Source: Pseudomonadota bacterium (GTDB lineage: Bacteria > Desulfobacterota > Desulfobulbia > Desulfobulbales > SURF-16). Taken from it: a stretch of DNA of 34,496 nt. Each line of letters opens with the position of its first letter. Position 1 is the first letter of the stretch. Made by a program: the position numbers and the translations under genes. Below are positions 1 to 33,466 of this stretch, piece by piece. The notes under the pieces were generated by a model. That model worked only from the letters and a program-made list of their open reading frames with translations. It made no database searches and was not told the origin of the DNA. The stretch is from assembly GCA_018816555.1 (NCBI GenBank), contig JAHIVT010000182.1, positions 1 to 34,496 on the forward strand, read 5' to 3'.

Positions 1-1518
1 CAGGCTGAGGGCCTGGACGAGGATTTAAGCAGGAACCTCCCGCTGGCTACCCTGTATCAAAATTCGGTGAAACTGGCCATGTTGCGCTGTCAGTACCAGG
101 AAGCGATCATCGAAAATGAGCAGCTTACTCGTCGTATGCAGGTTGTCAGCAGCAAACATACCCAACTGCTCGATGACAACCACCAACAGTTCCTGCTGAT
201 CCGGGAGAAAGAAAAGGAATACGCCAAAAAACTGGAGAGCGAGATTGCTAGACAGACGAAACAGCTTCGAGAGGCTAATGCCAGTCTAGAAGCGGCAAGT
301 CGTTTGAAAAGTGAGTTTCTGGCCAATATGAGCCATGAACTGCGCACACCCATGAATGCCATCATCGGTTTCAGCGGACTTCTGCAGGAAACGGATTTGA
401 CCCCTGAACAACGGGAATTTGCCGAAACCATTGGCAAGGCCTCCTTGAGTTTGCTGGTGCTCATTAATGATATTCTTGATCTTGCCAAGATTGAGGCAGG
501 CAAACTTGAGCTTGATCCCGCTCCTTTTCAGCTGATGGATCTGATGAAAAATGTGGAGGCAATGTTTCGCTCCCAGGCCTTGCAAAAGGAAAACAAGCTG
601 ATTTGTCAGGTTGATCCTTCTCTTCCGGTAAGTATCATCGGGGATGAGAACAGGCTCCGGCAGATATTGGTCAATCTGGTGGGCAATGCCATGAAATTCA
701 CCGGCAGGGGTGAGATTGCCATTAAAGTGGACAAGGTTCAGGAAGATGAGCAGCAGGTCAAGCTGCGTTTTGCAGTGAGTGACACCGGTATCGGCATCCC
801 ACTTGACCGGCAGAAGGCGATTTTTGAAAAATTTACCCAGGCGGACGGCTCAACAACCCGCAGGTTCGGCGGCACCGGCCTGGGGCTGGCCATCACCAGT
901 CAGCTTGTCAACCTGATGAACGGCACTGTTGAACTAGAAAGCGCGGAAAACAAAGGCAGCACCTTCAGTTTTGTCATCTCACTGCAAAAGGACATTGCCC
1001 CGGCAGACAGTCTGTTGCGAAGCGGTGTTCCTGCCGCCAGATCCGGCGAAGCAGGTGAAAAGGAACAGCTTACGCCGCAGCAGATAGAGGAAGCCCCTGT
1101 CAAAGGTGATCTCAAGGTGCTGGTGGTCGAGGATAATCTCGTCAACCAGCGGTTGGTATCCCTATTGCTGAAAAAGGCCGACTGTCAGGCTGATATTGCC
1201 GGCGATGGCCTGCAGGCCCTGGAAATGCTCAAAGAGCATCAGTATGATTTTGTCCTGATGGATGTGCAGATGCCCAATATGGATGGGCACACCGCCACCC
1301 GCAGGATACGGGAGATCGAGGCCTCGGCGGACAAGGATGAGTATGCTGCCTTTGCCGGCCGCGAAAAACCGCTCTATGTTGTCGGACTCACTGCCCATGC
1401 CCGGAAAGAGGATGAAAAGCAATGTTATGATGCAGGCATGGACGGTTTTCTCACCAAGCCCATTATCAGAGATAAACTGATCGATCTCATAGAGAAGGTA
1501 AGGTCGCAGAAAATATGA
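1..1518 (+). CDS. Hybrid sensor histidine kinase, 5'-partial
   Basis: The reading frame is open from the first base of the window, so the start lies upstream. Visible order: a long coiled coil (about codons 25-100), a HisKA dimerisation domain with the phospho-acceptor histidine in NMSHELRTP (nt 334-336), a HATPase_c domain with G1 box DTGIGIP and G2 box GGTGLGLAI, and a C-terminal receiver whose phospho-acceptor aspartate is in LMDVQMP (nt 1261-1263), with the conserved lysine in TKPI. It should autophosphorylate and pass phosphate to its own receiver or an HPt. No membrane segment is seen in the visible part, but the missing N-terminus could hold one or a sensor domain. Its TGA overlaps the cheB start by 4 bp (ATGA), so it is probably translationally coupled to the chemosensory genes downstream. 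The family call is firm; the input signal is unknown. Confidence 0.95.
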
Positions 1519-2651
1519 TTTCACGGAAAATACGGGTTCTTGTGGTTGATGATACGGTCCTCTACCGTAGGGTATTAAGTGACATCCTGGCCAAGATTCC
1601 TGACGTTGAGGTGATCGGCACGGCAAACAACGGTAAAATTGCCCTGGCCAAGATTGTCCAGCTGAAACCCGATTTGCTGACCCTTGATTTTGAAATGCCT
1701 GAGATGGATGGACTGGCCACCCTGCGCGAACTTCAGCGGCTGAAACTTGATGTGGCGGTGGTCATGGTCAGCGCCCATACCTGTGAAGGTGCGGCCGTTA
1801 CCATTAAGGCGCTGGAAGGGGGGGCCTTTGACTTTATTGCCAAACCGGACAGCACCTCACTGGAACAGAACCGCGAGTCCCTCTTGCGGCAACTGCGGCC
1901 GGTTATTCAAAGCGTGTCCACCAGGAAGTTGCTGCGCGCGACCCTCAGCGGAGCAAAGGCGCCGTCTTCGCCAAGAGCTGCAACGCCGGTACGACCCGCG
2001 GCAGCCGAGCAGCAGTTAAAGCCGCCGGTTTCTCCTGCGGCGGTGGAAACACCCAGAATTTCCCCCACAATGCTTACCGGTCGGATTGCCATTGTCGCCA
2101 TAGGCGTTTCAACGGGCGGCCCCAACGCCCTGGCGGAGGTCATTCCGAAACTGCCGACTACCTTCCGGGTGCCGGTGGTCATTGTCCAGCATATGCCGCC
2201 GGTATTCACCAAAGCCCTGGCTGATTCTCTTAACCAGAAAAGTGGTCTGAACGTCATTGAGGCCGGGGATGGGGAACAGTTGCTGCCGGGGAATGTGTAT
2301 CTGGCACCGGGCGCTAAACAAATGAAGGTGGTAAAGAGGGGTGCCGGCGAATTTCTGCAGCTGACCGATGATCCGCCGGAGAATCATTGTCGCCCGGCAG
2401 TAGACTATCTTTTTCGGTCAGTAGCCTCCGTGTATGGCAACAGAGCCCTTGGGGTGATCATGACCGGCATGGGATCGGACGGGGTAAAAGGGTTGCAGTT
2501 GATGAAACAACAGGGAGCCCAGGTGATTGCCCAGGACCAGGCAAGCTGTGTCGTATTCGGTATGCCCATGGAGGCGATCAAGGCTGGAGTCACTGATGTA
2601 ATTGTTCCATTGAACCAGATCTCTATAGAAATTACCAGTCGGGTTAAATAA
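1515..2651 (+). CDS. cheB: CheB, chemoreceptor glutamate methylesterase/deamidase
   Basis: 378 residues, the usual CheB length. The N-terminal receiver (about 5-120) carries the acidic pair D12/D13, phospho-acceptor D58 in LTLDFEMP and K110. A Pro/Ala-rich linker (about 145-185) leads to the methylesterase domain with the catalytic triad visible as S199 (GVSTGGP), H226 (VQHMPP) and D322 (GMGSDG). CheB removes methyl groups from receptor glutamates when phosphorylated by CheA, giving adaptation. The start overlaps the upstream kinase stop (ATGA), and the stop overlaps the cheR start (TAATG). CheA is encoded on the facing operon, so phosphate must come from a separately transcribed kinase or from the upstream hybrid kinase. 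All key residues are intact. Confidence 0.97.
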
Positions 2652-3478
2652 TGAAGGTTACGCCGGAAGAGTTGCAGCGGCTGGCCCGATTTGTCCATGA
2701 TAAGTGCGGTATCGTCCTCGATTCCTCCAAGGCATATCTGGTTGAATCCCGGCTTCTGCCCCTGCTCAGAGAAAAGAATTTCACCTCATTCGGCGATCTT
2801 TACAATCAGGCGGTGCGTAACCCGGAACTGGCTAATCGTATTATTGACGCCATCAGCACCAATGAAACATCATTTTTCCGGGACCAGCGACCGTTTGAAT
2901 TGCTGAAATTCAAGATTTTTCCTGATGTGCTTGATGCAATCTCCCGGTCCGGTGCAGGAGGAAAATCCGTGAGTATCTGGAGTGCCGCCTGTTCCACCGG
3001 ACAGGAAGTTTACACCATTGCCGTGACCCTGCATGAACTGCTGGGCGGTTCCATAACGCAATACCGCATTAAGATTACCGGCACCGATATTTCCGATACG
3101 GCTATCATGCAGTCGAGCCGCGGGTTGTATTCACAGTTTGAGATAGGCCGCGGGTTTCCGCAGAATCTGTTGAAGAAATATTTTATGCCGGATGGCCTGA
3201 GCTGGCGGGTCAAGGATGAGCTGCGGGCCATAACGTTTTTCAGGAAGATCAATCTGATGGAACCCTTTGGCACCATGGGGAAATTTGATATCATTTTTTG
3301 TCGCAATGTGGCCATTTACTTCAGTCTGCCCAATCGGAAATCACTTTTCGAGCGCATTGCCGCACAATTAAACCCACACGGCGCCCTGATCATCGGGTCA
3401 ACGGAATCGCTTTTCGGCGTGACTGATCGTTTTGTCCGCCGCGAGTATCATAATTCGGTCTTTTATTCTTTGAAATAA
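2651..3478 (+). CDS. cheR: CheR, chemoreceptor protein-glutamate methyltransferase
   Basis: 275 residues, typical of CheR. The N-terminal helical domain is followed by TNETSFFRD (70-78) and the SAM-binding fold with WSAACSTGQE (110-119), GTDIS (144-148) and FCRNVAIYF (216-224). It methylates receptor glutamates using S-adenosylmethionine, opposing CheB. The start codon shares one base with the cheB stop. There is no TPR extension and no C-terminal receptor-tethering feature. The presence of CheB and CheR implies a methylated receptor, yet no methyl-accepting protein gene lies in this window, so the receptor must be elsewhere. Confidence 0.97.
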   Translation: MKVTPEELQRLARFVHDKCGIVLDSSKAYLVESRLLPLLREKNFTSFGDLYNQAVRNPELANRIIDAISTNETSFFRDQRPFELLKFKIFPDVLDAISRSGAGGKSVSIWSAACSTGQEVYTIAVTLHELLGGSITQYRIKITGTDISDTAIMQSSRGLYSQFEIGRGFPQNLLKKYFMPDGLSWRVKDELRAITFFRKINLMEPFGTMGKFDIIFCRNVAIYFSLPNRKSLFERIAAQLNPHGALIIGSTESLFGVTDRFVRREYHNSVFYSLK

Positions 3479-3496
3479 AAGGCCGCAGGAGAAGAT

Positions 3497-3859
3497 GTGA
3501 AAACGGAAAAAAGAAGACATCCCCGGGTTGATTTTGCCGTACAGGCCTCCTTTGAGGCGGAAGGCCTGGTGCGTATGGATCATCGATGTGAAAATATCAG
3601 TATGTCCGGGCTTTTTCTCCGCACCGACGCCCCCCTTCCTGTTGGCACGCTGGGCAACCTGAAGATCGTGCTCTCCTGCGGCGAGGACCGTCTTGAGGTG
3701 CGGGCCGAATGTAAAGTCAGCAGGGTGATGGGGGCTGCGAGCGGCAAGGCCTTCGGCATGGGGCTTGAATATGTCAGTCTTGATCCTGACAGTTCCATCA
3801 CTCTGTATAATGTGGTAAAGTATCAGGGGGGACTGGATCAAGGTGAGAGCGAATTATGA
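3497..3859 (+). CDS. PilZ-domain protein, probable c-di-GMP receptor
   Basis: 120 residues. It starts at GTG, preceded by an AGGAGAAG ribosome-binding site. The PilZ signature is present: RRHPR (6-10, RxxxR) and NISMSG (33-38, matching D/N-x-S-x-x-G), followed by the beta-barrel pattern. No other domain is attached. PilZ proteins bind cyclic di-GMP and act by protein contact; the target here is unknown. The stop overlaps the next start by 4 bp (ATGA), tying it to the HEAT-receiver protein. Its place between cheR and a receiver protein suggests that c-di-GMP level is one input to, or output of, this chemosensory system. That is inference from context. Confidence 0.9.
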   Translation: MKTEKRRHPRVDFAVQASFEAEGLVRMDHRCENISMSGLFLRTDAPLPVGTLGNLKIVLSCGEDRLEVRAECKVSRVMGAASGKAFGMGLEYVSLDPDSSITLYNVVKYQGGLDQGESEL

Positions 3860-5496
3860 CACAGAAAATATCACTGGATGATGTATTGACCGAGCTGCGG
3901 CATGTTGTTGCCGCAGGTGACATCATCAAGGGCACCATTCTCCTTAATCATTTTGATCAGCTTGATGCCAAAGGCCAGAATCAGTTTCTTGCCCATCTGG
4001 CAGGTCTTGAAGGGGAGTTTGTTGTCACCCTGCTGGCCAGGCTTCTTGTTACTGAAAAGGAGATTGCCATACCAAAAGCGGTTATCCGTAATCTGCTGCT
4101 GGGCCGGGTGATGAAGAGTCCCCGGCAGCTGTTGACCCTGCTGACCAGTGAACAGGTGCGGCAGAAACAGGTATTTGTTGAGCTTGCCGGGGAAATCCAG
4201 TATGACGAGGCCATCCCTGTTCTGGAAGAGATCCTGGCCACCACAACCGATGACCTGTCTCTGATGAAGGCCTGCCTCATTGCCCTGGGCAATATAGGCG
4301 ATCCGGCGCCCACCAACACCTTGAGTGATTTTCTCTATTCCGGCCACAGGGAACTGGTTATCGCCTCCATCAACGCCCTGTCCAACATCGATACCCCTAC
4401 CTCTGTGCAGCGCCTGGTTGAGCGGATGGGTACGGACAGTGATCTTGACCTCATCATTATTGACGCCCTGGCCAATCTGCAGGATGCCCTTGCCCTGGAG
4501 AAGCTCAATAAAGAACTCAACTCACCCCATGCCTATATCAGAAATCATGTGAAGAGCAGGCTGGCCAGGATCGGTGCCAAAGCCATTCCCATGCTTACTG
4601 CCAATCTGGCAAGCCCGGACGCTGACCTGCTGGTCCATTCCCTCAACGTGCTGGGTTACATCGGCGATCTCAGTGCCGTGCGGTCGGTGCGTAAGCTGCT
4701 GCACGAGGAACCGGCCGATGCCAATGTTCGCTTTGCCGCTTATGAGTCCCTGGGCATGATGCCCCTGGCCAAGGGGGCCTATGTGCTGGCGGAAGGATTG
4801 GCTGATCCGGTTGATCAGGTGCGCATTGCTGCAGCCAAGGCTATTGAGTGGAACTGCGACGACATTCTCATTGCCGGGGTGCAGAATCTGGTGGGGCAGG
4901 GCGGCAGGGATGCCGAATATGTGGTCGAGGCCTTTCTTAATTCCGAATCCCATAAAATCGTTTTCAGCATTATCGATCTGCCCGCTTTTCAGGAGCTGGC
5001 AGTAAATTTTCTGAACACCAAGGCCCATCCTGATCTGAAAAAGCGTTATGAAGAGTTGTTCCGGGACAAAGGTTATACTGAGCTGGCGAACAAACTGGTT
5101 ACCAAAAAGATCGACAGGGAAGAGAAGAAGCTGTTGGTTTTTGCGGTCGATGATTCCAGGATGATCCTCTCTATTTACAAAAATACCCTGTTCCAGCTTG
5201 GCATGGAATCGCAACTGTTTGAGTTTCCGGCCACGGCCATTGAAAAAGTCATTGCCCACAAGCCGGACGTGCTGTTGACCGATCTGAACATGCCTGACAT
5301 TACCGGCATTGAGTTAACCAGGCAGTTGCGGGCGCTTTACTCATCTCAGGAGCTGCCGATTATCATGGTGACCACCCAGAGCGACAGCCCTGACCACCGG
5401 GAGGCCTATGAGGTGGGAGTCAACATGATACTATCGAAGCCTTTTACCGCCGAACAGGTGGGGGCGGCAATTAATGAGGTGATGCAGAAGAAATGA
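3856..5496 (+). CDS. HEAT-repeat protein with C-terminal receiver domain
   Basis: 546 residues. Residues about 1-410 are a helical solenoid of HEAT-like repeats: successive helix pairs with recurring segments such as ALGNIGD, ALSNIDT and VLGYIGD at roughly 30-40 residue spacing. Residues about 426-544 are a receiver with acidic pair DD (431-432), phospho-acceptor D476 in LLTDLNMP and K528 in SKPF. No DNA-binding, GGDEF or enzymatic output domain is present. It may be a phosphorylation-controlled scaffold, with the HEAT array as the protein-binding face. It is the last gene of the plus-strand operon, coupled to the PilZ gene by ATGA and followed by a strong terminator. The domain call is firm; the partner is unknown. 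Confidence 0.88.
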   Translation: MTQKISLDDVLTELRHVVAAGDIIKGTILLNHFDQLDAKGQNQFLAHLAGLEGEFVVTLLARLLVTEKEIAIPKAVIRNLLLGRVMKSPRQLLTLLTSEQVRQKQVFVELAGEIQYDEAIPVLEEILATTTDDLSLMKACLIALGNIGDPAPTNTLSDFLYSGHRELVIASINALSNIDTPTSVQRLVERMGTDSDLDLIIIDALANLQDALALEKLNKELNSPHAYIRNHVKSRLARIGAKAIPMLTANLASPDADLLVHSLNVLGYIGDLSAVRSVRKLLHEEPADANVRFAAYESLGMMPLAKGAYVLAEGLADPVDQVRIAAAKAIEWNCDDILIAGVQNLVGQGGRDAEYVVEAFLNSESHKIVFSIIDLPAFQELAVNFLNTKAHPDLKKRYEELFRDKGYTELANKLVTKKIDREEKKLLVFAVDDSRMILSIYKNTLFQLGMESQLFEFPATAIEKVIAHKPDVLLTDLNMPDITGIELTRQLRALYSSQELPIIMVTTQSDSPDHREAYEVGVNMILSKPFTAEQVGAAINEVMQKK

Positions 5497-6075: not shown

Positions 6076-6163
6076 ATCCTTTTCCTTGCGCTGTCAGAAG
6101 ACAATTATGGCCGGCCTGTGCCGATGAAGGCAGCGGAGTTCCGGGCCGGCTTTCAGCCAACTG

Positions 6164-9100
6164 TTAACGTTGTTTGTTTTTCAGGTAAAAAAGAATCTTT
6201 TCGATGATCTGTTCTCGGTCCAGTTTGATCAGATATTCATCAACACCTGCCTGTCTGCCGCTCTGTTCAGCGGCCTCCCCGGCAACGGATGTAACGGCGA
6301 TAACCGGTAGTGACGACCAGCGGCTGTCATGTCTGATATTTCTGGTAAGCTCCAGCCCATCCATGTTCGGCATTTCAATATCAGTCAGTACCAGGTGGAT
6401 CTGTTCCTCGTTAAGGATCTTTAAGGCCTCCACCCCATCTTCCGCTGTAAAGGTGTTGTAGCCTGCCTCGCCCACGAAGTTCTGAATCTGGTTCATGAAG
6501 AATTTGGAGTCTTCAACAATGAGTATATTAAACTTGTTGTCATCTCCTGTATCAGCCTGGCTCTTAATAAGAGCCCATTCGGGCATGACGCCTGCCACTA
6601 CACCATAAAGATCGACCAGCAGGGTGATTTCATCAAAGATGAGCATTGAGCCGAGAATGCCCGGCTGTTTATGGGTGACATCGTCTATTTTCAATTTGGC
6701 GTCAAGGATATCGACGATTTGGCTGACCATGATACCTACTTCACGGCCGGCCATGGGAAAAACAACCACATAGCATGTTTCGGCACCGGGGTCCCGCGTA
6801 CCCACGCCGGCTACCTCATCAACACCGAAAAGAGCCAGACTGCCACCTCGGTACTTAATGTTTCTGCGGCCGGCGGTAACCTTTATATTGGCGGTTTTGA
6901 TCCTTTCAATTCTGGAGACAAGTCCAAGGGGGATGGCCATCTGTTCGTCAGGTGTGTTTCTGACGATGAGCAAGGATTGCGAGTCTTCCAGCCCTGTCTT
7001 CTCCTCTTTTGTCTGCAGCTTCTGGGCCTTTACCTTGTCTGCCACCATGTTCAGTTTCATCTTGGCGCTGATGCCTACCACGTCAAGGATCAGGGCAACC
7101 TTGCCGTCACCCTGGATGGTGGCTCCCGCATAGCATTTGCAATTGCGCAGGTGGGAGCCGAGTGGTTTGACGACAATCTCCTCGGAATCAAGCAGCTGAT
7201 CGACAATCAGTCCGTAATGAAAATCCCCGGAGGCGAGAACGAGGATATTATAGGCGCTCAGCGGGTTGACGCGGCGGTCCTCTCTCATTCGTTTCTCAAC
7301 AAATTGTTCCTGCTCTTCTTTAAGTTCATCCCTGGAAGAGGGGGTTCTGTTTTTTTCGCCGGCGCGAGGATCGGAGATGTTTGCCCGGCGTTCATCTTTT
7401 ATTTCCCGGGTTGCCGGATCAACATAAATCGGGGTTTTGATGTCCAGCGCCTCGCGCAAATGGACCAGGGGCAGCAGTTCTCCCCGCAGGCGAATGACCA
7501 GCGCGTCGCCGATTTTTTCTATCCGTTCCTTTATCTGTGCCGCCGGCACCCGCACCAGTTCCACCAGGTTGACCTGCGGGACGGCAAAACGCTCCATCTG
7601 GCAGGTGACAATCAGACTGGGGATAATGGCCAGGGTCAGCGGCAGTTTGATGGAGACGGTGGTGCCCAGTCCCAGCGTGGATTCAATGTCGATAACGCCG
7701 CCTAATTTGGAAAGATTGGTGTGGACCACATCCATTCCCACGCCTCGGCCTGAAACATCGGTTACCTCTTTTGCCGTGGACAGACCAGGGGTAAAGATCA
7801 GCTTATTTAACTCCTTGGGGGACATGGACTCCAGGTGAACCCGGTCATAGAGCCCCATTTCCAGCACCTTGGCCTTCAGTTTGTCCGTGTTGATGCCGGC
7901 TCCGTCGTCCTCAATCTCAATGATAACCTGGCCTCCTTCGTGGAAGGCGCTCAAACGCAGAAGACCGGTCGCCGGTTTGTTGGTGCTCAGACGCACGTCA
8001 GGTATTTCTATACCGTGATCCACCGAGTTTCTGACCAGATGGGTCAGGGGGTCTCCGATGGCTTCGATAATGGTCTTGTCAAGCTCAACCTCCTCACCTT
8101 CAATGATAAGATTGATTTCTTTGCCCAGATCCTTGGAAAGATCACGGACAACCCGTTTGAATTTGTTGAAGATATTGCCGATGGGCTGCATTCTGGTGGA
8201 CATGATTGATTCCTGCAGTTCGGAGGTCACCAGGTCAAGCCGTTGGGAAACCGTATCAACACCCTGCTGATTACGGGAGGCAACGGCCTGTATCAACTGG
8301 TTTCTGGTCAGGACAAGTTCTCCTGCCAGTGTCATGAGATTATCCAGGATTTTGACGCTTACCCTCAGATTGGTCTCCGCCTTGATCTGCAGTGAATCCT
8401 TTCGCCCAAGAGGTGGAGCGGCTTTGGGCGTAGCCTGTTTCGCAGCGTTGTCGTGATCAGCCAACTGCCCTTGGGGCTCCTCGCTATGAAACGTTTCCGG
8501 GGGAGGCATGGTTGCAGTCGGCAGTGCTTCACCCTGACGTTGCGGCTCGGGTTCTTGTTTTGTGGGAGCATTGGTTGTTGTTGATGGCTCATGTACGGGT
8601 TCCGCTGCCGAGGCGGTTTGTTCTCCCACATTGACGGCATGTATCTTGGAAGCGGCAAGGCCGAGAAAACCTGTCAGCAGGTCGGCTTCCATGATGGTGG
8701 CAAAAAGAGCAAAAAAAGGAATCCTCATTGCTTCGATATCAGTCGTCAGATCACCCACCGAAGCGATATCCACTTTGCTGTCAACCAACTGGCCGGTCTG
8801 CTGCAGTTCTCTGATAACCTCAAGAGGAGTTTTGCCCTGTTGCTCGATATCGGCAATCAGGTCGTATTCGAGGATAAACAGGTTGTTGCCCCCTTTCATG
8901 GTGGCATTGAGTTCAAACTCGCTGAGGTGGAAGATATCCGGTTTGTCCGGAGAGCCCAAGGTGAGGGTATTTTCCAGGGTAGGCTTCTCATCCTCGTTGA
9001 GATTGGCTGCGACAGCCTTCTGCAGAGCAGCGATATGAGTGGAGATATCCACATCATTGCTGGTGGCGGCATTGCTTATCATGTTGCCGAGCAGATCGGT

Positions 9101-18571: not shown

Positions 18572-19528
18572 CTATTGCTGTTCTTTTTCTTCCCCCTTGC
18601 TATATAAATCCTCTTTTTTCATGCCGGTCAAAGGATCAGTCTGGAAGCTGCCTGCCGTGGCGAAAAACGGCGAGGCCGATGACTTGATGACATGATCATT
18701 ATCCTCACCGCTTTCTTCGGGGCCGATGTTGACGGTCACTCTTTCCTTGTCCGTGGCCAGGGTGAGAATGACAGTGTCAAGGGGTTTGCCCTGGTATTGT
18801 TTGCCCAGATAGCTGTTGATGGCAATATGGGTGAGCTTCTGCAGGAAATTGTCAAGGGCGGCCGGCTCCGGTTCCTGCTGCGATTGGTCACCGTCCACCT
18901 GCCATTTTTCCCCGTCTTTACGCAAGGTAAAGCTGCCATGGCTGTTTTTCAGGGTAACCTCATGCAGACTGTTCCTGTCAACCTGCACATACACTTTCTG
19001 CCACCATGATTCCTTGTGGGTATCAAGGTTCCAGGTAGAAATGCCTCTGGCAAGATAGACATCATCCGTTGACGGAGGGCGGACATGGATCGTCTGCGGC
19101 CCGGAGGGGCTGCCAAGAAAGAGAGTCTGGGTTTTGCCGTCTTTTGCCGTGAGAACAATTTTTTTGGCGAAAACCTTGTCATCCACCTGGAGGGGGATAT
19201 GGCTTGACCGGGTTCTGGTGACCAGCCGCTGTAACTGCAGAGAGGTAAGGTTGCTGATAATATGCTGGATCTGGCCGGCGTCGGCCGGGAACATGTCGGA
19301 ACTGCCATCATCGATGAACCAGTTTTCATCTTTCTCCCTTTTCAGGGAGAGTGTCTTGCCGGTTGCGTCGGTGATGGACAACTGGGCAACCGTGTCGGCA
19401 GTGAGACCGGGGAACAGTTCCACCATGGGTTGCCCCTTTTCGCCGCTTGGCAGATAAAGAAAGGCTAGCAGAACCAACTGGCAGACCAGCAGGATGAGCA
19501 GAATGAGATTTGTTTTTTTCCGGATCAT
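18572..19528 (-). CDS. DUF4340-domain membrane-anchored protein of a Gld-like ABC system
   Basis: 318 residues from ATG at 19528, chosen because it forms an ATGA overlap with the upstream gene. One N-terminal membrane segment (about 7-25) is followed by repeated beta-rich DUF4340-type units (for example WFIDDG and WWQKVYVQV) and ends in a Lys/Glu-rich tail. The domain is common as the third gene after GldA and GldG-like genes, as here. Its role is unknown; a periplasmic accessory subunit of the transporter is the simple reading. It ends 39 bp from the converging lipoprotein gene, with no clear terminator between them. Confidence 0.85.
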   Translation of the reverse strand: MIRKKTNLILLILLVCQLVLLAFLYLPSGEKGQPMVELFPGLTADTVAQLSITDATGKTLSLKREKDENWFIDDGSSDMFPADAGQIQHIISNLTSLQLQRLVTRTRSSHIPLQVDDKVFAKKIVLTAKDGKTQTLFLGSPSGPQTIHVRPPSTDDVYLARGISTWNLDTHKESWWQKVYVQVDRNSLHEVTLKNSHGSFTLRKDGEKWQVDGDQSQQEPEPAALDNFLQKLTHIAINSYLGKQYQGKPLDTVILTLATDKERVTVNIGPEESGEDNDHVIKSSASPFFATAGSFQTDPLTGMKKEDLYSKGEEKEQQ

Positions 19529-22445
19529 TGTATTTCTCCCACAAGCTGCATGGGCTTTTCCGCTCTTCGGCGGTTTGCCCCGAAGATGCTCACTGCAGCA
19601 AGGGCTGCCAGGGCAACACCGTAATTGAGCCATTCCCAGAAGGTCTGTTCCTGTCTGGTCATGGGTTTGAGCAGTCTGGCGTGGGAGCCGCGGGAGCGGA
19701 TGGTCAGCAGGTCTTCATCCGCCACGCTCCAGTCAATGATATTCTGGACAAAGCCCAGACTGTTTAAGAAGCGGTCCATACCCAGTCCCTGGGACATGCT
19801 GATGACAGAGTCGCTGACAAATTCAGTCGAACCGATGACCACCAGGCGCGATGAGGGGGGGGAATGGTTGACGATCGGCATGGGCGGCAGTTCCTGTTTT
19901 TTCTGCGTGTGCTCAGGTTTTGCGGTTTCTTCCCCTGTGTCATCATGGTTGTTTTTCTCTGTATTGGCGTTTTGTTGCAGCCTGGGATCGGGCCTGTCCT
20001 GAAAAAGGCTGGTAAAATCACCGGTTATGGCCACGGCAAGATTGTGCTGCCGGAAATCTTCGCCCGGGGAAAAGCCGTTGTCGGGGAAATGCTCGAAGTC
20101 AGGTTCGATTATAGGCGATGGAGCAAGCCAGGACTCACTGCTTGATTTGAGCAGGATGGCGACTTTTTTGCCCTGTAACTTCCGGTCATCGAGTAAGAGC
20201 GGTGACACCCAGTTCATGGTCACGGCAGGAAGACTTGAGGTGATGGGGTTGTCAGACGCCATGTTTTCCGGCCGCACATCAACGAAGAACGGATAGTCGA
20301 TGCGCTGGATTTCCTGGATGGTCATGCCGTCGATATTGCGGCTTACCGGTATGGGAAACGGCTCGTTCTGTTTGTCCATGACCAGGGACTCTTCCACGGT
20401 GATGCCGTAATGACTGAAAAGATCAGCCATTCCGTCCTTGATCTTGCTGACCTGCAGGGACTGGGCGTCCGGGGACATATCGAGCAGATAGTTGCCGGCA
20501 AGCGCCACAACGGCCCCTCCCTGCATCAGGTACTGGTCGATTGCCAGCCTTTCCACATCCGTCAGATTTTGGGGAGCCAGCAGCAGGAGAACGTCGATAT
20601 CGCCTGCAACCCTGCCCTGGCTCAGATCGACTTTTTGCAGATTATAGTTTTCCCGCAGCAGCTGCTGGATGATCTGATAGTTGTCCTTGGGTGCGCCATG
20701 TCCCATCATGGCCAGAGGGGATTGGTCCTCATCTGCTGGTGCCCACACGCCAATGGTTTTGGTGAAGCCGGAGCCGTTGCGTTTGATGGCGCCCTCGATT
20801 TCCTGGCGCAGTTCAGCCTCCCCCATGTCCGGGGTGAGGTAGAGCCGTTCAACACTGTCTCCTGTCTGCAGCAGCAGATGGAGATAGAAGGTGTCTTCGG
20901 AAAACAGCGAGAGCCTGATCGGTTCAATGCCGTATTGTTCGTTCAGCTTCTGCTGTTCGGCGGCTGACATCCGGTCAGGATCCTGTTCATCAAAGAGCAG
21001 TTTGCCGCCCGATTCCTTCTGCAGATCGCTGACCACCTTTTTGATGGTATCGGGCATGGCCTGGAAGGATTCCGGCAGGGTACGGGGAGTAATGATGTTT
21101 ATTATTTTGAAGCCGGTGGGATTTCCTACAAAAACCGAGGCCAGGGACTGAAAGCCGTAGACCACCTTTTTGATGGATCGGGTGAGGTCATATTCAAGAT
21201 TGCGCAGCGAGACGTCCAGCTGGCCGTCGGGCCGGGGTTTGACTTCAATGAGATCATTAAAGCCCAGGGTGACAAATTGATCGCCGTATTTGATCAGTAT
21301 ATGGAAATAGGAGTTGACCACTGAGGACTCATAGCGGCCGGCCACCTGAAAGGGGATCGGTTTGATGCCATACTGCTGGTTGGCCTCGGTCTCGATCTGT
21401 TCATCAAGCTTGGGATCGACAAAGGAGACCTTTACGTTGCCCCGGGAGGCAATATCGTATTCGGTCATCAGGTCTTTGATACGCGGCACGAGCGGGGAGA
21501 GCAGGGGATGGGTCTTGGCGCTGAAATAGCCGCGCATGATCAGCGGTTCGGGGAGATTGGCGATGATCTGCCGGGTGGCCCGGGACAGGGAGTATTCCCG
21601 GTTGGCGGTGAGGTCGAGCCTGGCTGAACTCACGCGGGCAAGCCAGATGTTGGCAACAAGGAGATTGGCCGCAATGAGCAGCACGGTAATCAGGGCCTTT
21701 CTCCGGTAGCCTGCGGTATTTTTGCCGAAACTCCAGCGCGTGCGGTCGAGAAAATAGATGTTCAAAGTCAGGAAGAGCACGGCCAGGCTCAGGTAGTAAA
21801 AAACATCGCGCAAATCGATGACGCCGCGTTCGATGCTGCTAAAACGGCTTCCCGTGCCCAGGCTGCGGAGAAAATCGGCGGCCTGGTTGCCGAAAAAGTC
21901 GGTAATGCCGCTTGAGCCGATAAGAAAAAACAGGCCGGCCAGCAGGACGGTGAGCATGAGCGAGATAATCTGGTTATCGGTGCGGGAAGAGACAAAAAGA
22001 CCGATACTGATATAGGCTGCGGCCATGAGCAGGGTGCCGAGATAACCGCAGACAACTGGCCCCCAGTCCAGATTGCCCATCATGGCCACGGAAATCGGCA
22101 GGCCGATGGTGAGCAGCAGGGCGCAGGACGTCAGGGCCAGCACGGCCAGAAATTTGCCCAGCACCAGCTGATGCAGGCGCACCGGCAGGGTGAGAAGCAC
22201 CTCCAGGGTGCCGATCTTCTGCTCCTCGCTCCATTGGCGCATGGTGAGGGCTGCCACCAGAAAAATCATCAGCATGGGCATCCAGTTGAACAGGGGGCGG
22301 ATATCCGCTGTATTTCTGGCAAAGAAGGTTTCCAGCCAGAAAAAGGAAAAAAGGGAACAGAGCAGAAAAAAGCCGATGAAAATGGCAGCCATGGGCGTGC
22401 CGAAATAGGTTTTCATCTCTTTGCCGCAGATGGCAAGAATCTGTT

Positions 22446-22449
<4 letters not shown>
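19525..22449 (-). CDS. Fused ABC-2 permease and GldG-like auxiliary protein
   Basis: 974 residues. Residues 1-240 are an ABC-2 type permease of the GldF kind with six predicted membrane segments and the WSEEQKIGTLEVLLTLP loop typical of these permeases. A further membrane segment (about 250-270) begins the GldG-like part (ABC_transp_aux), with the conserved LDLTANREYSLS entry and a large periplasmic domain up to about 925. A low-complexity charged insert lies around 840-870 (HDDTGEETAKPEH). A last membrane segment (about 940-960) ends the protein. In many genomes these are two genes; here they are one open frame. It sits between the ATPase gene and the DUF4340 gene, both by ATGA overlap. Confidence 0.92.
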
Positions 22450-23378
<929 letters not shown>

Positions 23379-24394: not shown

Positions 24395-25135
24395 TTAAAG
24401 ATGAAGAATTTTTCCGCTCGGCTGCCATTTCCTGTTCTTGCCACGGGGAACAGTCTGATAGCATTCCACCAGATCGCCGATGCGGACATTTTTGAAATTT
24501 TCTATTTTCATGCCCACCTGCTGCCCGGGCGTGGCCTTGCTGACAGTGTCCTTTTCAATATGCAGTGAGGAGACGATGCCCGAGTAGACTGGTCCCATTG
24601 CCGAGATGATGCGGAAGTGGTCTCCACGCTGCAACCTGCCTGTCTCAACCTCACAGCCGATAATGAGACCTTTTCTGCTGCTTTTAAACAGGGCAATAAC
24701 CTTTGCCTTGCCCAGAATCTTTTCCTCTTCTTCCCGGGGCAGGAGCGTGACGGCTATCTCCTTGAGATCCTCATGCAGTTTGTAAATGACCGAGTAGAGG
24801 CGCACCTCGACATTCTGTTCATTGCAGAGTTCCGCAACCTTGGGCAGCACATTAACATTGAAACCAAGGACCAATCTGCTGCCGGTGGCAGCGGTCATGA
24901 CGTCTGTTTTGCAGATATCGCCCACACCTTTGTGGATAATTTCCACGGGCAGACCCTCGATGGTATTTTTAGCAATGGTTTCACAAACCGCCTGCTCACA
25001 GCCGTCAGTATCACTCTTGATAACAATGGCAAGCATTGGTTTATGTTCCTGTTCAGAGGACGTTGCCGCAGCCGGGAGGGTATCAGAGTGTTTGCTCGTT
25101 TTATGCTGGTGGTGCGTTTTCGATTTGTGACCCAT
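24395..25135 (-). CDS. Stand-alone IF2 domain III-IV paralogue lacking the GTPase
   Basis: 246 residues from ATG at 25135, fixed by a GGAGG ribosome-binding site 8 bp upstream. A His/Lys-rich tail (1-33, HKSKTHHQHKTSKH) precedes sequence that follows the C-terminal half of initiation factor IF2: domain III (34-131, with IIHKGVGDICKTDVM, LGFNV and LYSVIYKL) and domain IV/C2 (about 140-230, with FKSSRKGLIIGC and IGDLVECYQ). The G domain and domain II are absent. At positions tied to fMet-tRNA binding in IF2, the cysteine in IIGC (161) remains, but the basic loop is SLHIEKD (190-196) and the Glu-Cys-Gly site reads GQQVG (204-208). So it is unlikely to act as a normal IF2. It may have another ribosome or RNA role. 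Confidence 0.88.
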   Translation of the reverse strand: MGHKSKTHHQHKTSKHSDTLPAAATSSEQEHKPMLAIVIKSDTDGCEQAVCETIAKNTIEGLPVEIIHKGVGDICKTDVMTAATGSRLVLGFNVNVLPKVAELCNEQNVEVRLYSVIYKLHEDLKEIAVTLLPREEEEKILGKAKVIALFKSSRKGLIIGCEVETGRLQRGDHFRIISAMGPVYSGIVSSLHIEKDTVSKATPGQQVGMKIENFKNVRIGDLVECYQTVPRGKNRKWQPSGKILHL

Positions 25136-25262
25136 TTGCAGAACCTCCGGATGAATAGTATGGAGCTCCTTATCGGTTTGTGGCCATGGGACAGGGAATG
25201 CCCATGGGAATAAGCCGAAGAAATGCACAAATGACTATTGATGGCTTCGTAAAAGCTGAAAA

Positions 25263-29386: not shown

Positions 29387-30190
29387 TCAGTTGGCTGAAT
29401 GGCTGGATAGTTTTTTTCTGAAAATCAGCAAAGCGGGCAGGGCGCTGCCGAGCAGCAGGATAGTTGGGGGGACGGGAACAGCTGGTTGCTGGATGGCCTC
29501 GGTGATGAAACTGGAACCATACGAGGAGCCCAGGGTGTTGCCCTTATAATCCAGAATCAGGGTGCCTTGCCCGGTGGTAATGTCCACCGCGAAGATCTTG
29601 GTTGCGGAGATGCCGTACAGGGTGTCGTTGTCCGCCGTTGCCAGGCCGTAGACGTTGTAGAAACCGAACTCGCCGATTTTGGTGCCGGTTGCATTATTGT
29701 TTAAGTCGATACGGATCAGTTCGTTGTGGGTGGACGAGAGGTAGAGATTGTTGTGGTAAAAGGCCAGATCGCCGGCGGAAAAGAAGCCGGTGGTTCCGAT
29801 GCCGGTTCCGATGCCGGTTGCCGGATCGAGGATGAAGAGTTTTGCCGTGGTGCCTCCGGCAGCATAGAGTAATCCATCGGGGCCGAATACCAGGGCATTG
29901 CCCTGGGGAATGTTGTGGGCGCCGATAAGGGTTGTCGCCGCAGTGCCGGGATCTATCCGGTACAGATCGGTCGGGGTGATGCCCCACAGGTTGCCGTCCG
30001 CATCATAGGCGATATCGGTCATGACCGCTCCCATGGTGCCGATGATATCCACAGTGCTGTCGGCAAGATCAACCGTGCCGAGCTGGCCGGCCGCATCATG
30101 GGCCCAGAGTACCGGGGAACTGAAGGCCTGCCCTGACATCAGAAAAAAAGAAGAAACCACAAGGAAGAGAACAGTCATATATTTCTTCAT
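29387..30190 (-). CDS. PEP-CTERM sorting-domain protein with propeller-like repeats
   Basis: 267 residues from ATG at 30190, chosen because AGGAAAG precedes it and a signal peptide (1-25) then begins the protein. The body (about 28-230) has beta-propeller-type repeats such as LGTVDLADS, LWGITPTDLYRIDP, LYAAGGTTAKLF and LYGISATKIFAVD. The C-terminus has VPVPPT (238-243), a hydrophobic segment (244-257) and a basic tail RKK, the PEP-CTERM pattern recognised by exosortase, so it should be exported and processed at the surface. Exosortase is not in the window. A small direct repeat (ccgatgccggtt twice, 29796-29819) encodes a GIGT pair. Confidence 0.85.
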   Translation of the reverse strand: MKKYMTVLFLVVSSFFLMSGQAFSSPVLWAHDAAGQLGTVDLADSTVDIIGTMGAVMTDIAYDADGNLWGITPTDLYRIDPGTAATTLIGAHNIPQGNALVFGPDGLLYAAGGTTAKLFILDPATGIGTGIGTTGFFSAGDLAFYHNNLYLSSTHNELIRIDLNNNATGTKIGEFGFYNVYGLATADNDTLYGISATKIFAVDITTGQGTLILDYKGNTLGSSYGSSFITEAIQQPAVPVPPTILLLGSALPALLIFRKKLSSHSAN

Positions 30191-30271
30191 TTTTGCTTTC
30201 CTGTAACCACAATGAGTGAAGGTGAATTTTATCCCAAGCCGGGTGAATGGCCGGCATTGGGCCGTAAACTT

Positions 30272-30310
30272 AAAAAGACCCTGAAAGTGTCTCACTTTGC
30301 GGGTCTTTTT
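30272..30310. terminator. Terminator-like hairpin in a divergent intergenic region
   Basis: An arm at 30272-30289 pairs with 30293-30310 at 16 of 18 positions with a TCT loop, flanked by A5 and T5 runs, so it is a terminator in both directions. No gene points into it from either side: it lies 82 bp upstream of the PEP-CTERM gene (minus) and 193 bp upstream of the AEC gene (plus). It may therefore be a leader attenuator of either gene. The rest of the 312-bp gap (30191-30502) shows only small palindromes such as CCCCTTTCAGGGG at 30328. Confidence 0.7.
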
Positions 30311-30502
30311 CATCATTTATGCGTGCCCCTTTCAGGGGGATGAAAATGATCATTTTTCTGCTGCACTCATCAGTTCCTTTCATTCTGAGATTTTGTCCGG
30401 TGATTGTCAACCGATATGTTACAGTCTTGCTGCAGCCGGATAACAGGCATGAAGATAATTTTTTAGCTCGCCAATTTTTTTGATTTGTTATAGTAAGCCG
30501 CC

Positions 30503-31560: not shown

Positions 31561-32008
31561 TTAAGATGTGATCTGACAAATTGAATTAAGCTCTGATAAT
31601 ACCTGATTAGTTTTTCCTACGTACTCAGGAATTATGTTGCGCGATAGTCTGTTAGTATCAACCACTTTGCCTGACACTCCTCATGAAGCATAAGCGTAGG
31701 TAATCTCGGGGGAAGCCCCTATCTATCACAGCTTTTTTCTGTTATGATGTGCAGAGCAGATGCTGACACATTTCCATATCAATAATTACCTATGGATTGA
31801 TTGAACCGAGGAGCAAAATTAGATGTCTGAGCTTCCATGGAATGATAGCAAGCTTCCAGATAACACGCAAATATGCAGGATGACCAGTTAGAGACGGCCT
31901 ATAAATTGCGAGTTTAGCTTATCAGATGCGCGGGGAGGTTTGGAGACTCCTAGAAAACTAGATAATTACTTGGTGACTGTAACGCCACTTGAAAAGACAG
32001 AGGTACTA
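31561..32008. other. A/T-rich stretch without a recognisable gene
   Basis: 448 bp between the second repeat element and the sensor gene. All frames are broken within about 25 codons, for example a 22-residue frame from ATG 31823. A short hairpin GGGG-aag-CCCC near 31713 is visible. It probably holds the promoter of the downstream sensor gene, but no motif stands out. It may be decayed accessory DNA. Confidence 0.5.
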
Positions 32009-33466
32009 ATGCACCGAATTCTCAAGCTTTCCATATATTTTCTTCTCCTTTGCCTGATGCCTTTTGCGCTGGTGAGTGCATCCTCTAGTGCAAACGTACC
32101 ACAAGCTACCGGGGTTGGTCATAAGCGGGTGCTTATCCTCTATGCCTACAATAACAACGTACCCACTTTGCAACAGATAGCCGCTGGTATCAATAGAGTT
32201 ATAAAAAATAGCAATTTGCGATCCATCGACTTCGTTCATGAATATCTGGACATCGCTCCCCCCAAGTACCCTGCACACCGTTCCGAGCTAAGCGAGCTAC
32301 TACTTCAAAAATACGCCGGACAACAATTTGACCTGATTGTTACTTACAGTAAAGAAGGGTTGAATTTCCTCTTTAACGAAGGGAAGGAACTTTCTCCAGG
32401 CAGTCCCTGTATTGCGATTTTTGGGGAACTCAACAAAGAAATCAGTCAATTAGAGCGGAAGGTTACGTATATCCCTTTGGAGATGGATCCGCGGGGTACG
32501 TTGGAACTAGGATTGGAGCTCTTTCCTAAAACCCGCAAGGTGCTTTTTGTGACAGGGACAGTACCGGTCGATAAGATGTTTGAGAGTAAGGCACGCACTG
32601 AATTTGAGTCTTGGCAAGGCAAACTGGAATTTGAATATACGAGTCAACGCTCTGTTGAAGACCTGATGAATTATGTTGCTCAATTGCCACCTGATACGCT
32701 TATTATTTATTCAAATGTCACGTCCGATATCACCGGAAAGACCTTTGTTCCTCGCGATGTGGTAAAGACCTTGGCCAGCATATCCAATGCACCGGTTCTA
32801 AGTATGTTTTCAACACAAATCGATACTGGTGTAATCGGTGGTTCCATGATTGACATGGAACTGATTGGCATGATGTTAGGCAATGTAATGCTGGGGCTTG
32901 AAAGTGGTAAATCTCTAATTATAGACCCTGATTTACGTTACACCAAGCCAATGTTCAATTGGACGCAGATTGAGCGATGGGGCATTAATCCGGATTGCCT
33001 TCCCGCTGACAGCGTATTTATCAATCGTCCGCTGACTCTATGGGGACAATACAAGACGGCTGTTATCTCGGCAGTGCTGGTGATTTTAATTCTAAGCATT
33101 TTGACCGTTGCTTTGACAATTCAGAACCGGCGACGAAAATCTGCCGAACTGACAGCACGTGAAAGTGCGGTCCAGCTCGCAGCAGAGCGCGATCTGTTGG
33201 AACAGCGCGTGATTGAGCGTACCGCAGATATCAAGAATCAGCGTGATCTGCTGGAGCTAAAGAATGAAGAATTGGAAAGTGCATTGGTTCAAATCAAGAG
33301 GTTAGAAGGAATTATCCCAATCTGTATGCATTGCAAAGAAATCAGAGATGATAAGGGATATTGGTATAAACTTGAAGAATACATATCAGAACATTCCGAG
33401 GCCCAATTCAGTCATTCTATCTGTGACAAATGTTTAGATAAATACTACCCAGAAGAGAAGATCTGA
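32009..33466 (+). CDS. Periplasmic ABC_sub_bind-type sensor protein without a kinase domain
   Basis: 485 residues from ATG at 32009, chosen for AGAGGT 5 bp upstream and the signal peptide that follows (1-25). The periplasmic domain (about 38-340) resembles that of the hybrid kinase at 25622 (VLILYAYN, FDLIVTYSKEG, GVIGGSMIDME, ending in LPADSVFINRPL). A membrane segment (about 350-372) and a coiled coil (375-433) lead to a short C-terminal module with CMHC (439-442) and CDKC (472-475), probably zinc-binding. There is no kinase, GGDEF or methyl-accepting domain. It may act by contact with another signalling protein. It lies in A/T-rich DNA unlike the rest of the window. Confidence 0.85.
   Translation: MHRILKLSIYFLLLCLMPFALVSASSSANVPQATGVGHKRVLILYAYNNNVPTLQQIAAGINRVIKNSNLRSIDFVHEYLDIAPPKYPAHRSELSELLLQKYAGQQFDLIVTYSKEGLNFLFNEGKELSPGSPCIAIFGELNKEISQLERKVTYIPLEMDPRGTLELGLELFPKTRKVLFVTGTVPVDKMFESKARTEFESWQGKLEFEYTSQRSVEDLMNYVAQLPPDTLIIYSNVTSDITGKTFVPRDVVKTLASISNAPVLSMFSTQIDTGVIGGSMIDMELIGMMLGNVMLGLESGKSLIIDPDLRYTKPMFNWTQIERWGINPDCLPADSVFINRPLTLWGQYKTAVISAVLVILILSILTVALTIQNRRRKSAELTARESAVQLAAERDLLEQRVIERTADIKNQRDLLELKNEELESALVQIKRLEGIIPICMHCKEIRDDKGYWYKLEEYISEHSEAQFSHSICDKCLDKYYPEEKI

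Follow-up and report, generated by a model that had tools for sequence, protein, structure and literature searches.

Initiation factor IF2 is nearly universal and is normally a multidomain GTPase that touches the ribosome through its G domain and domain II. The window, by which we mean the whole 34,496-nucleotide stretch of DNA analysed here, carries a 246-residue gene product that follows only the tRNA-end half of IF2. The locus therefore raises the question of whether this is a remnant of infB or a gene in its own right and, in the second case, what its tRNA-binding barrel may still recognize. Our comparisons show that the short proteins make up a stand-alone, conserved family that descends from the C1–C2 half of IF2 or from an ancient protein related to that half, and our confidence in this family identity is high. 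They look like an undescribed translation or tRNA factor.

Residues 35–229 of the window protein align without a single gap to residues 689–883 of Escherichia coli IF2 (E = 5.6e-30 in a search against solved structures, in which the best matches are IF2 proteins), and the C1–C2 homology is far above chance. Because the alignment is gapless, window residue n corresponds to E. coli residue n+654; the Geobacillus number is n+507, an inferred offset that agrees with the R-Q-x-F and G pattern in Bacillus IF2. The IF-2 domain PF11987 is recognized by Pfam at 89.9 bits (cut-off 27) and occurs in 13 of the 13 members of set A1, and the C2 barrel is matched, at scores under the respective cut-offs, by PF03144 and by PF14578. 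Apart from PF11987 and these C2-barrel models, Pfam finds nothing in the window protein, neither a GTP-binding domain nor domain II, and a scan of the longer frame of family member G549 reveals no extra domain. The NCBIfam model of bacterial IF2 (TIGR00487) gives the window protein 154.3 bits against a cut-off of 424.4, a threshold at which true IF2 C-terminal halves also fail (281–304 bits). The sequence-only reading of this DNA had described IF2 domains III and IV without a G domain or domain II, preceded by a GGAGG site of their own; the alignment and the domain search bear out this architecture, and the site recurs at the matching place in two relatives (G001 and G004). It had also called the N-terminal tail rich in His and Lys. 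The basic character holds across the family, with K+R exceeding D+E in 28 of 28 parsed tails (28 of the first 31 members; 3 unparsed and 17 later members lie outside the count), and the richness in histidine (6–7 His) peaks within the window's own genus. An AlphaFold model of the window protein, made from a four-sequence alignment, has a mean pLDDT of 41.5 and is too poor for use.

Table 1 Features of the short gene, its product and its neighbours in the window.
Feature	Position in window	Strand	Detail
ABC-2 transporter set	18572-23378	minus	ATPase, fused permease with ABC_transp_aux (974 aa), DUF4340 protein
Co-oriented downstream gene, 220 aa	23716..24378	minus	No Pfam hit; starts 16 nt after the short-gene stop
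Short IF2-like gene	24395..25135	minus	246 aa, P0001; ATG at 25135, stop 24395-24397
GGAGG ribosome-binding site	25144..25148	minus	8 nt before ATG; from sequence
N-terminal basic tail, residues 1-34	25034..25135	minus	5 K/R, 6 H, 3 D/E
C1 (domain III), residues ~35-130	24746..25033	minus	PF11987 at residues 12-125 and E. coli alignment
C1-C2 linker (H12 equivalent), residues ~131-142	24710..24745	minus	Length equal to E. coli IF2; gapless alignment
C2 (domain IV) beta-barrel, residues ~143-229	24449..24709	minus	Alignment to IF2
Apparently rebuilt C2 pocket: I147, A148, F150, G160, H192-I193-E194-K195, Q206-V207-G208	within 24449..24709	minus	Column counts
C-terminal extension, residues 230-246	24398..24448	minus	W237 and P239 family-conserved; most IF2 rows empty there

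A protein homologous to the C-terminal half of IF2 and to no other part of it could be one piece of a split infB, or the product of a decaying infB duplicate. However, the window's genome (97% complete, 183 contigs) has a complete infB on another contig, a 963-residue frame with the motifs GHVDHGKT, DTPGH and NKID, which refutes a split gene for this genome; the short protein and the IF2 of its own genome are 34% identical. Evidence for a separate infB was obtained in 30 of the first 31 carriers (17 later carriers are outside this count). It consists of a separate match in 29, among which the frames of G233 and G081 are short and their matches lie close to the end of a contig, and of an N-terminal infB part at a contig end in G019. 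Among 18 further carriers whose infB piece was examined, 16 have the G1 motif in it, the two misses being the short pieces of G233 and G081. In the remaining carrier, G288, a draft that is 94% complete, neither TIGR00487 nor the short protein as query finds an infB, probably because of an assembly gap. The short family is under purifying selection, with dN/dS values of 0.16, 0.14, 0.18 and 0.10 in four close pairs (our own Nei–Gojobori script). This range of 0.10–0.18 also argues against decay, as do signature residues that the short family has as its own throughout. We regard a split or decaying infB as highly improbable, and the earlier proposal of an independent gene, neither broken nor split, stands.

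The family is distinct in profile searches. With a profile of 13 members, short proteins score 230–426 bits, against 164 for the best IF2, and we count 48 distinct carriers, spread over three or more classes of the window's phylum, which is probably Desulfobacterota. Carriers comprise 21 of the 242 genomes drawn from the window's order, the same 21 among 257 drawn from its class, and 13 of 395 in an even draw across the phylum (10 of them new), although absences in these three draws are inexact, since the first-look candidates of some genomes were not all scored. In the class of G613, 23 of 55 genomes are carriers (17 new), as are 21 of 26 in its family, f103; the class of G491 has 3 carriers in 12, none new. 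The gene is patchy within the window's order and common in f103. Exact peptide patterns searched over all species recover only three relatives. A mobile or viral origin was considered and rejected: viral contigs contain no relative of the short protein, and the matches listed from phage and plasmid records are 24–36% identical and are IF2 wherever a feature is named (covering all 49 plasmid rows and 20 of the 21 phage rows, many of them without annotation and not each read).

In a tree of the 31 short proteins then known and 46 IF2 sequences, the short proteins form one side of a 100/100 branch. The same 100/100 branch recurs after adding the IF2 of ten bacteria from six other phyla, in a set of 17 of the 48 short proteins and 27 IF2 (17 of the 46 from the phylum and the 10 others). 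With these 17 short and 27 IF2 proteins, forcing the short proteins together with the phylum's own IF2 costs 5.45 log units (p-AU 0.346), a cost at which a duplication inside the phylum and an older split would both fit. Within the family, G233 (f11) clusters with G011, a member from the window's family, and two further members from f11, G198 and G089, cluster with f3; these placements suggest some horizontal transfer. The longest branch among the short proteins belongs to the G288 draft.

The short proteins also depart from IF2 within the C2 barrel. We compared 48 short proteins, column by column, with 46 IF2 C-terminal halves from the phylum and 10 IF2 from six other phyla (56 IF2 in total); later columns hold 47 short proteins, one member being cut by a contig end. 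At position 147 (E. coli R801) the short proteins have I (46) or V (2 of 48), whereas R occupies all 46 phylum sequences and 53 of the 56 IF2 (R 7, K 2 and L 1 among the 10 from other phyla). Position 193 (R847) is I in 39, V in 7 and M in 1 of 47, against R in 45 and H in 1 of the 46 phylum IF2 and R in 55 of 56 overall, including 10 of 10 from other phyla; for this residue, the R847G substitution in E. coli IF2 is described as lowering fMet-tRNA affinity (PMC8709274). The adjacent F848 column carries E or D in 42 of 47 short proteins and F in 51 of 56 IF2, and position 195 (K849), invariably K in IF2 (56 of 56, including 10 of 10 from other phyla), is partly kept (K 25 and R 8 of 47). Position 206 (E860) is Q in 43 of 47, with one short protein retaining E, compared with E in all 56 IF2 (46 of 46 from the phylum, 10 of 10 others), and position 207 (C861) is V in 43, A in 3 and I in 1 of 47, compared with C in 45 and F in 1 of 46 phylum IF2 and C in 54 of 56 overall (9 of 10 from other phyla). 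Both changes reported earlier, from R/K-R-F-K to HIEK and from Glu-Cys-Gly to Gln-Val-Gly, are borne out by the alignment and the counts, and across the family the short homologues do not keep the fMet residues that IF2 proper keeps. The cysteine of IAGC (C815), singled out earlier as retained, is indeed found in 46 of the 48 short sequences, but IF2 itself varies at this position (C in 34 of 46 in the phylum, 5 of 10 in other phyla).

The residues by which the pocket touches A76 and encloses the amino acid are retained: F150 (47 of 48), G160 (48 of 48), G208 (47 of 47) and also I158. The fMet pocket of IF2 is listed in the passage of PMC4611024 that defines it as R654, Q655, F657, G667 and E713, in that paper's numbering. 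Of these five, R, Q and E become I, A and Q in the short proteins, and F persists in 47 of 48 and G in all 48. An alanine at position 148 also occurs in Neochlamydia IF2, one of three IF2 from other phyla with L or K at R801. Switched C2 columns are enriched in the published site (3 of 5, P = 0.017), which we count as weak support because the site list was compiled after the first column table. The short family also has fixed residues of its own: G181 (48 of 48) and P182 (46 of 48), two positions without G or P in any of the 56 IF2; M180 (44 of 48) and F174 (46 of 48), compared with the 46 phylum IF2; and, among the 44 short proteins with letters there, the C-terminal W237 (43) and P239 (42). 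K151 was discarded as a gained residue: it is K in 47 of 48 short proteins and variable in phylum IF2, yet K in 7 of the 10 IF2 from other phyla. Because the aromatic and glycine frame is kept, the fMet pocket looks rebuilt rather than ruined. The sequence-only reading was right that fMet-related positions are lost, and the loss is family-wide; its further step to a loss of initiator-tRNA binding does not necessarily follow, given F150, I158, G160 and G208, and the new roles that it suggested (ribosome-binding competitor, stress factor or RNA-binding adaptor) stand as candidates. With this frame in place and the changed residues fixed in their new state, an altered specificity for the tRNA end would fit at least as well as a loss of binding.

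The short proteins share with the C-terminal half of bacterial IF2 the C1 domain, the length of H12 and the C2 barrel; unlike IF2 they lack an N-terminal region as well as the G domain and domain II, their fMet-site residues are replaced, they carry a W-x-P extension at the C terminus, and their gene coexists with a normal infB. Their I-A-x-F wall resembles V989-A990-x-F992 of C. thermophilum eIF5B, whose aminoacyl pocket is modelled in PMC4236685 from V989, A990, F992, G1001 and A1054. K1058 of eIF5B lines the A76 pocket (PMC4236685), and the position that we align to it is K in 37 of 47 short proteins and G, S or T in 43 of 46 phylum IF2. Four short proteins score 62–65 bits with the archaeal model PRK04004, against 40–55 for five bacterial IF2 C-terminal halves, and with a bacterial IF2 model the same comparison gives the four about half the score of the five. 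The wall, the K1058-like lysine and the archaeal-model scores together lead us to the rebuilt pocket. Overall, however, the short protein is much closer to bacterial IF2 than to a/eIF5B (154 bits versus 48–65), it has no G domain, and the aIF-2 model TIGR00491 gives the window protein 48 bits, below its cut-off of 554.75.

R274 of EF-Tu contacts the A76 phosphate (PMC4236685), and position 195 of the short proteins (K or R in 33 of 47) aligns to it in our alignment. PF03144 (EF-Tu domain II) scores lower in five short proteins (20–29 bits) than in five IF2 C-terminal halves (35–41 bits), and we therefore rejected the idea that C2 has moved in general towards EF-Tu domain II or an elongator-type barrel. 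PF14578, which bears the name domain 4, recognizes 13 of 13 short proteins, but 10 of 22 halves of IF2 are also recognized at E up to 1, a weak shift only. The Pbp11 model NF041207, tRNA-binding by name, hits the short protein in its C2 part, but at 22.1 bits against a cut-off of 100, and it is a 104-position model without C1. The isolated IF2-C2 domain functions without a G domain and binds fMet and fMet-ACC fragments, according to the binding results given in PMC4611024; the short protein differs from it in its changed fMet pocket and its attached C1.

The gene neighbourhood varies between families. The 220-residue downstream gene probably lies outside any system of the short protein, because a relative stands beside the short gene only in G001 among the loci compared. 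The short gene has an ABC-2 ATPase and permease close by in the genus of the window and in two more genera of the same family, and in one group of f103 azlC-azlD lie upstream of it with proC facing (neighbour domain names come from one or two scanned members per cluster). In genus g318 of f103, a gene for a NIL-domain 4Fe-4S protein lies slightly upstream in 7 of 10 carriers, and in 2 of the 7 a gene for an MnmA-type tRNA thiouridylase sits between the two. These three genes lie on one strand at 1468-4024 of locus L171 (G662) and at 5889-8630 of L173 (G666). On L098 (G089, f11), selB with SelB wing domains (6084-8015) is followed on the same strand, about 100 nt on, by the short gene (8114-8872). 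We rejected a link to selenocysteine: selB adjoins the short gene in 1 of 31 contexts (17 later f103 contexts are outside the scan), and its presence does not discriminate because it is near-universal in the order, scoring over the cut-off in 205 of 242 genomes. No conserved neighbourhood is common to the families, and no translation gene recurs among the contexts compared. Because no neighbour is common across the phylum, we draw no function from context.

Our leading reading, which we offer tentatively from sequence comparison, is that the short protein, a small factor and no GTPase, may hold on to or occupy a tRNA acceptor end that bears something other than fMet, at or near the ribosome, and so tune or block IF2-dependent initiation. 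Because no G domain is attached, the protein cannot drive a GTP cycle alone. Its C2 barrel most likely still grips the tRNA 3′ end, because the frame around A76 and the aminoacyl pocket is preserved. Formyl-methionine would no longer be read, because R801, R847, E860 and C861 are replaced throughout, an altered binding that we infer from published IF2 work. The acceptor end would carry another group, be it an unformylated aminoacyl group, a peptidyl group or none. The basic tail and C1 would probably position the protein on the ribosome or rRNA, and IF2-dependent initiation might be tuned or blocked in this way under particular growth conditions.

Two other roles deserve weighing against such a tRNA-end factor. 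The protein could be a ribosome decoy or hibernation factor, in which C1 and the tail occupy part of the IF2 site, C2 binds no tRNA and initiation is blocked as growth slows. Such a protein would have no release by GTP hydrolysis, and a precedent is the GTPase-dead IF2 variant H448E, described as stuck on the ribosome and dominant lethal (PMC8709274). The loss of residues needed for fMet-tRNA binding and the basic tail would suit this role, but the preserved A76 and aminoacyl frame and the strong conservation of the changed residues would be surprising in a C2 domain with no ligand. Having neither G domain nor domain II, the protein also lacks the contacts with the ribosome that these parts provide in IF2, and we consider a decoy unlikely. 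Alternatively, the protein might work off the ribosome as an adaptor for tRNA or other RNA, perhaps in tRNA thiolation or in some other reaction that depends on tRNA. The NIL-domain and MnmA-type genes in g318, the single selB directly upstream and the weak Pbp11 similarity all lean in that direction; yet none of these neighbours is seen in the contexts of other families, selB is too widespread in the order to be informative, and four of five IF2 C-terminal halves also match the Pbp11 model weakly (12.8–19.2 bits). An adaptor role is, in our estimate, rather improbable. A bolder version of the tRNA-end reading, which we put forward as speculation with little expectation, is an undescribed translation factor of a single phylum: a GTPase-free IF2 relative with its pocket switched from fMet to an eIF5B-like hydrophobic form, which would deliver or guard unformylated aminoacyl- or peptidyl-tRNA ends, support alternative initiation or ribosome rescue, and possibly form a sister lineage of bacterial IF2 that is itself ancient.

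Among the titles listed from the open-access literature (subscription journals lie mostly outside it), none concerns a half of IF2 without its GTPase. The carriers are some sulfate-reducing and related bacteria, with a normal IF2 besides. A family that keeps only the tRNA-end half, with its fMet pocket rewritten much alike in member after member, is a natural experiment on that half alone. It allows a direct test of the pocket residues that set formyl-methionine specificity, and it points to an unrecognized step of translation or tRNA handling in anaerobic bacteria.

Two further frames in the window have no Pfam hit. One is a 508-residue open frame on the plus strand (31940-33466), and the other, on the minus strand (29387-30316), encodes a secreted-looking protein of 309 residues with VPVPPTILLLGSALPALLIFRKK near its end, which we take to resemble a PEP-CTERM sorting tail.
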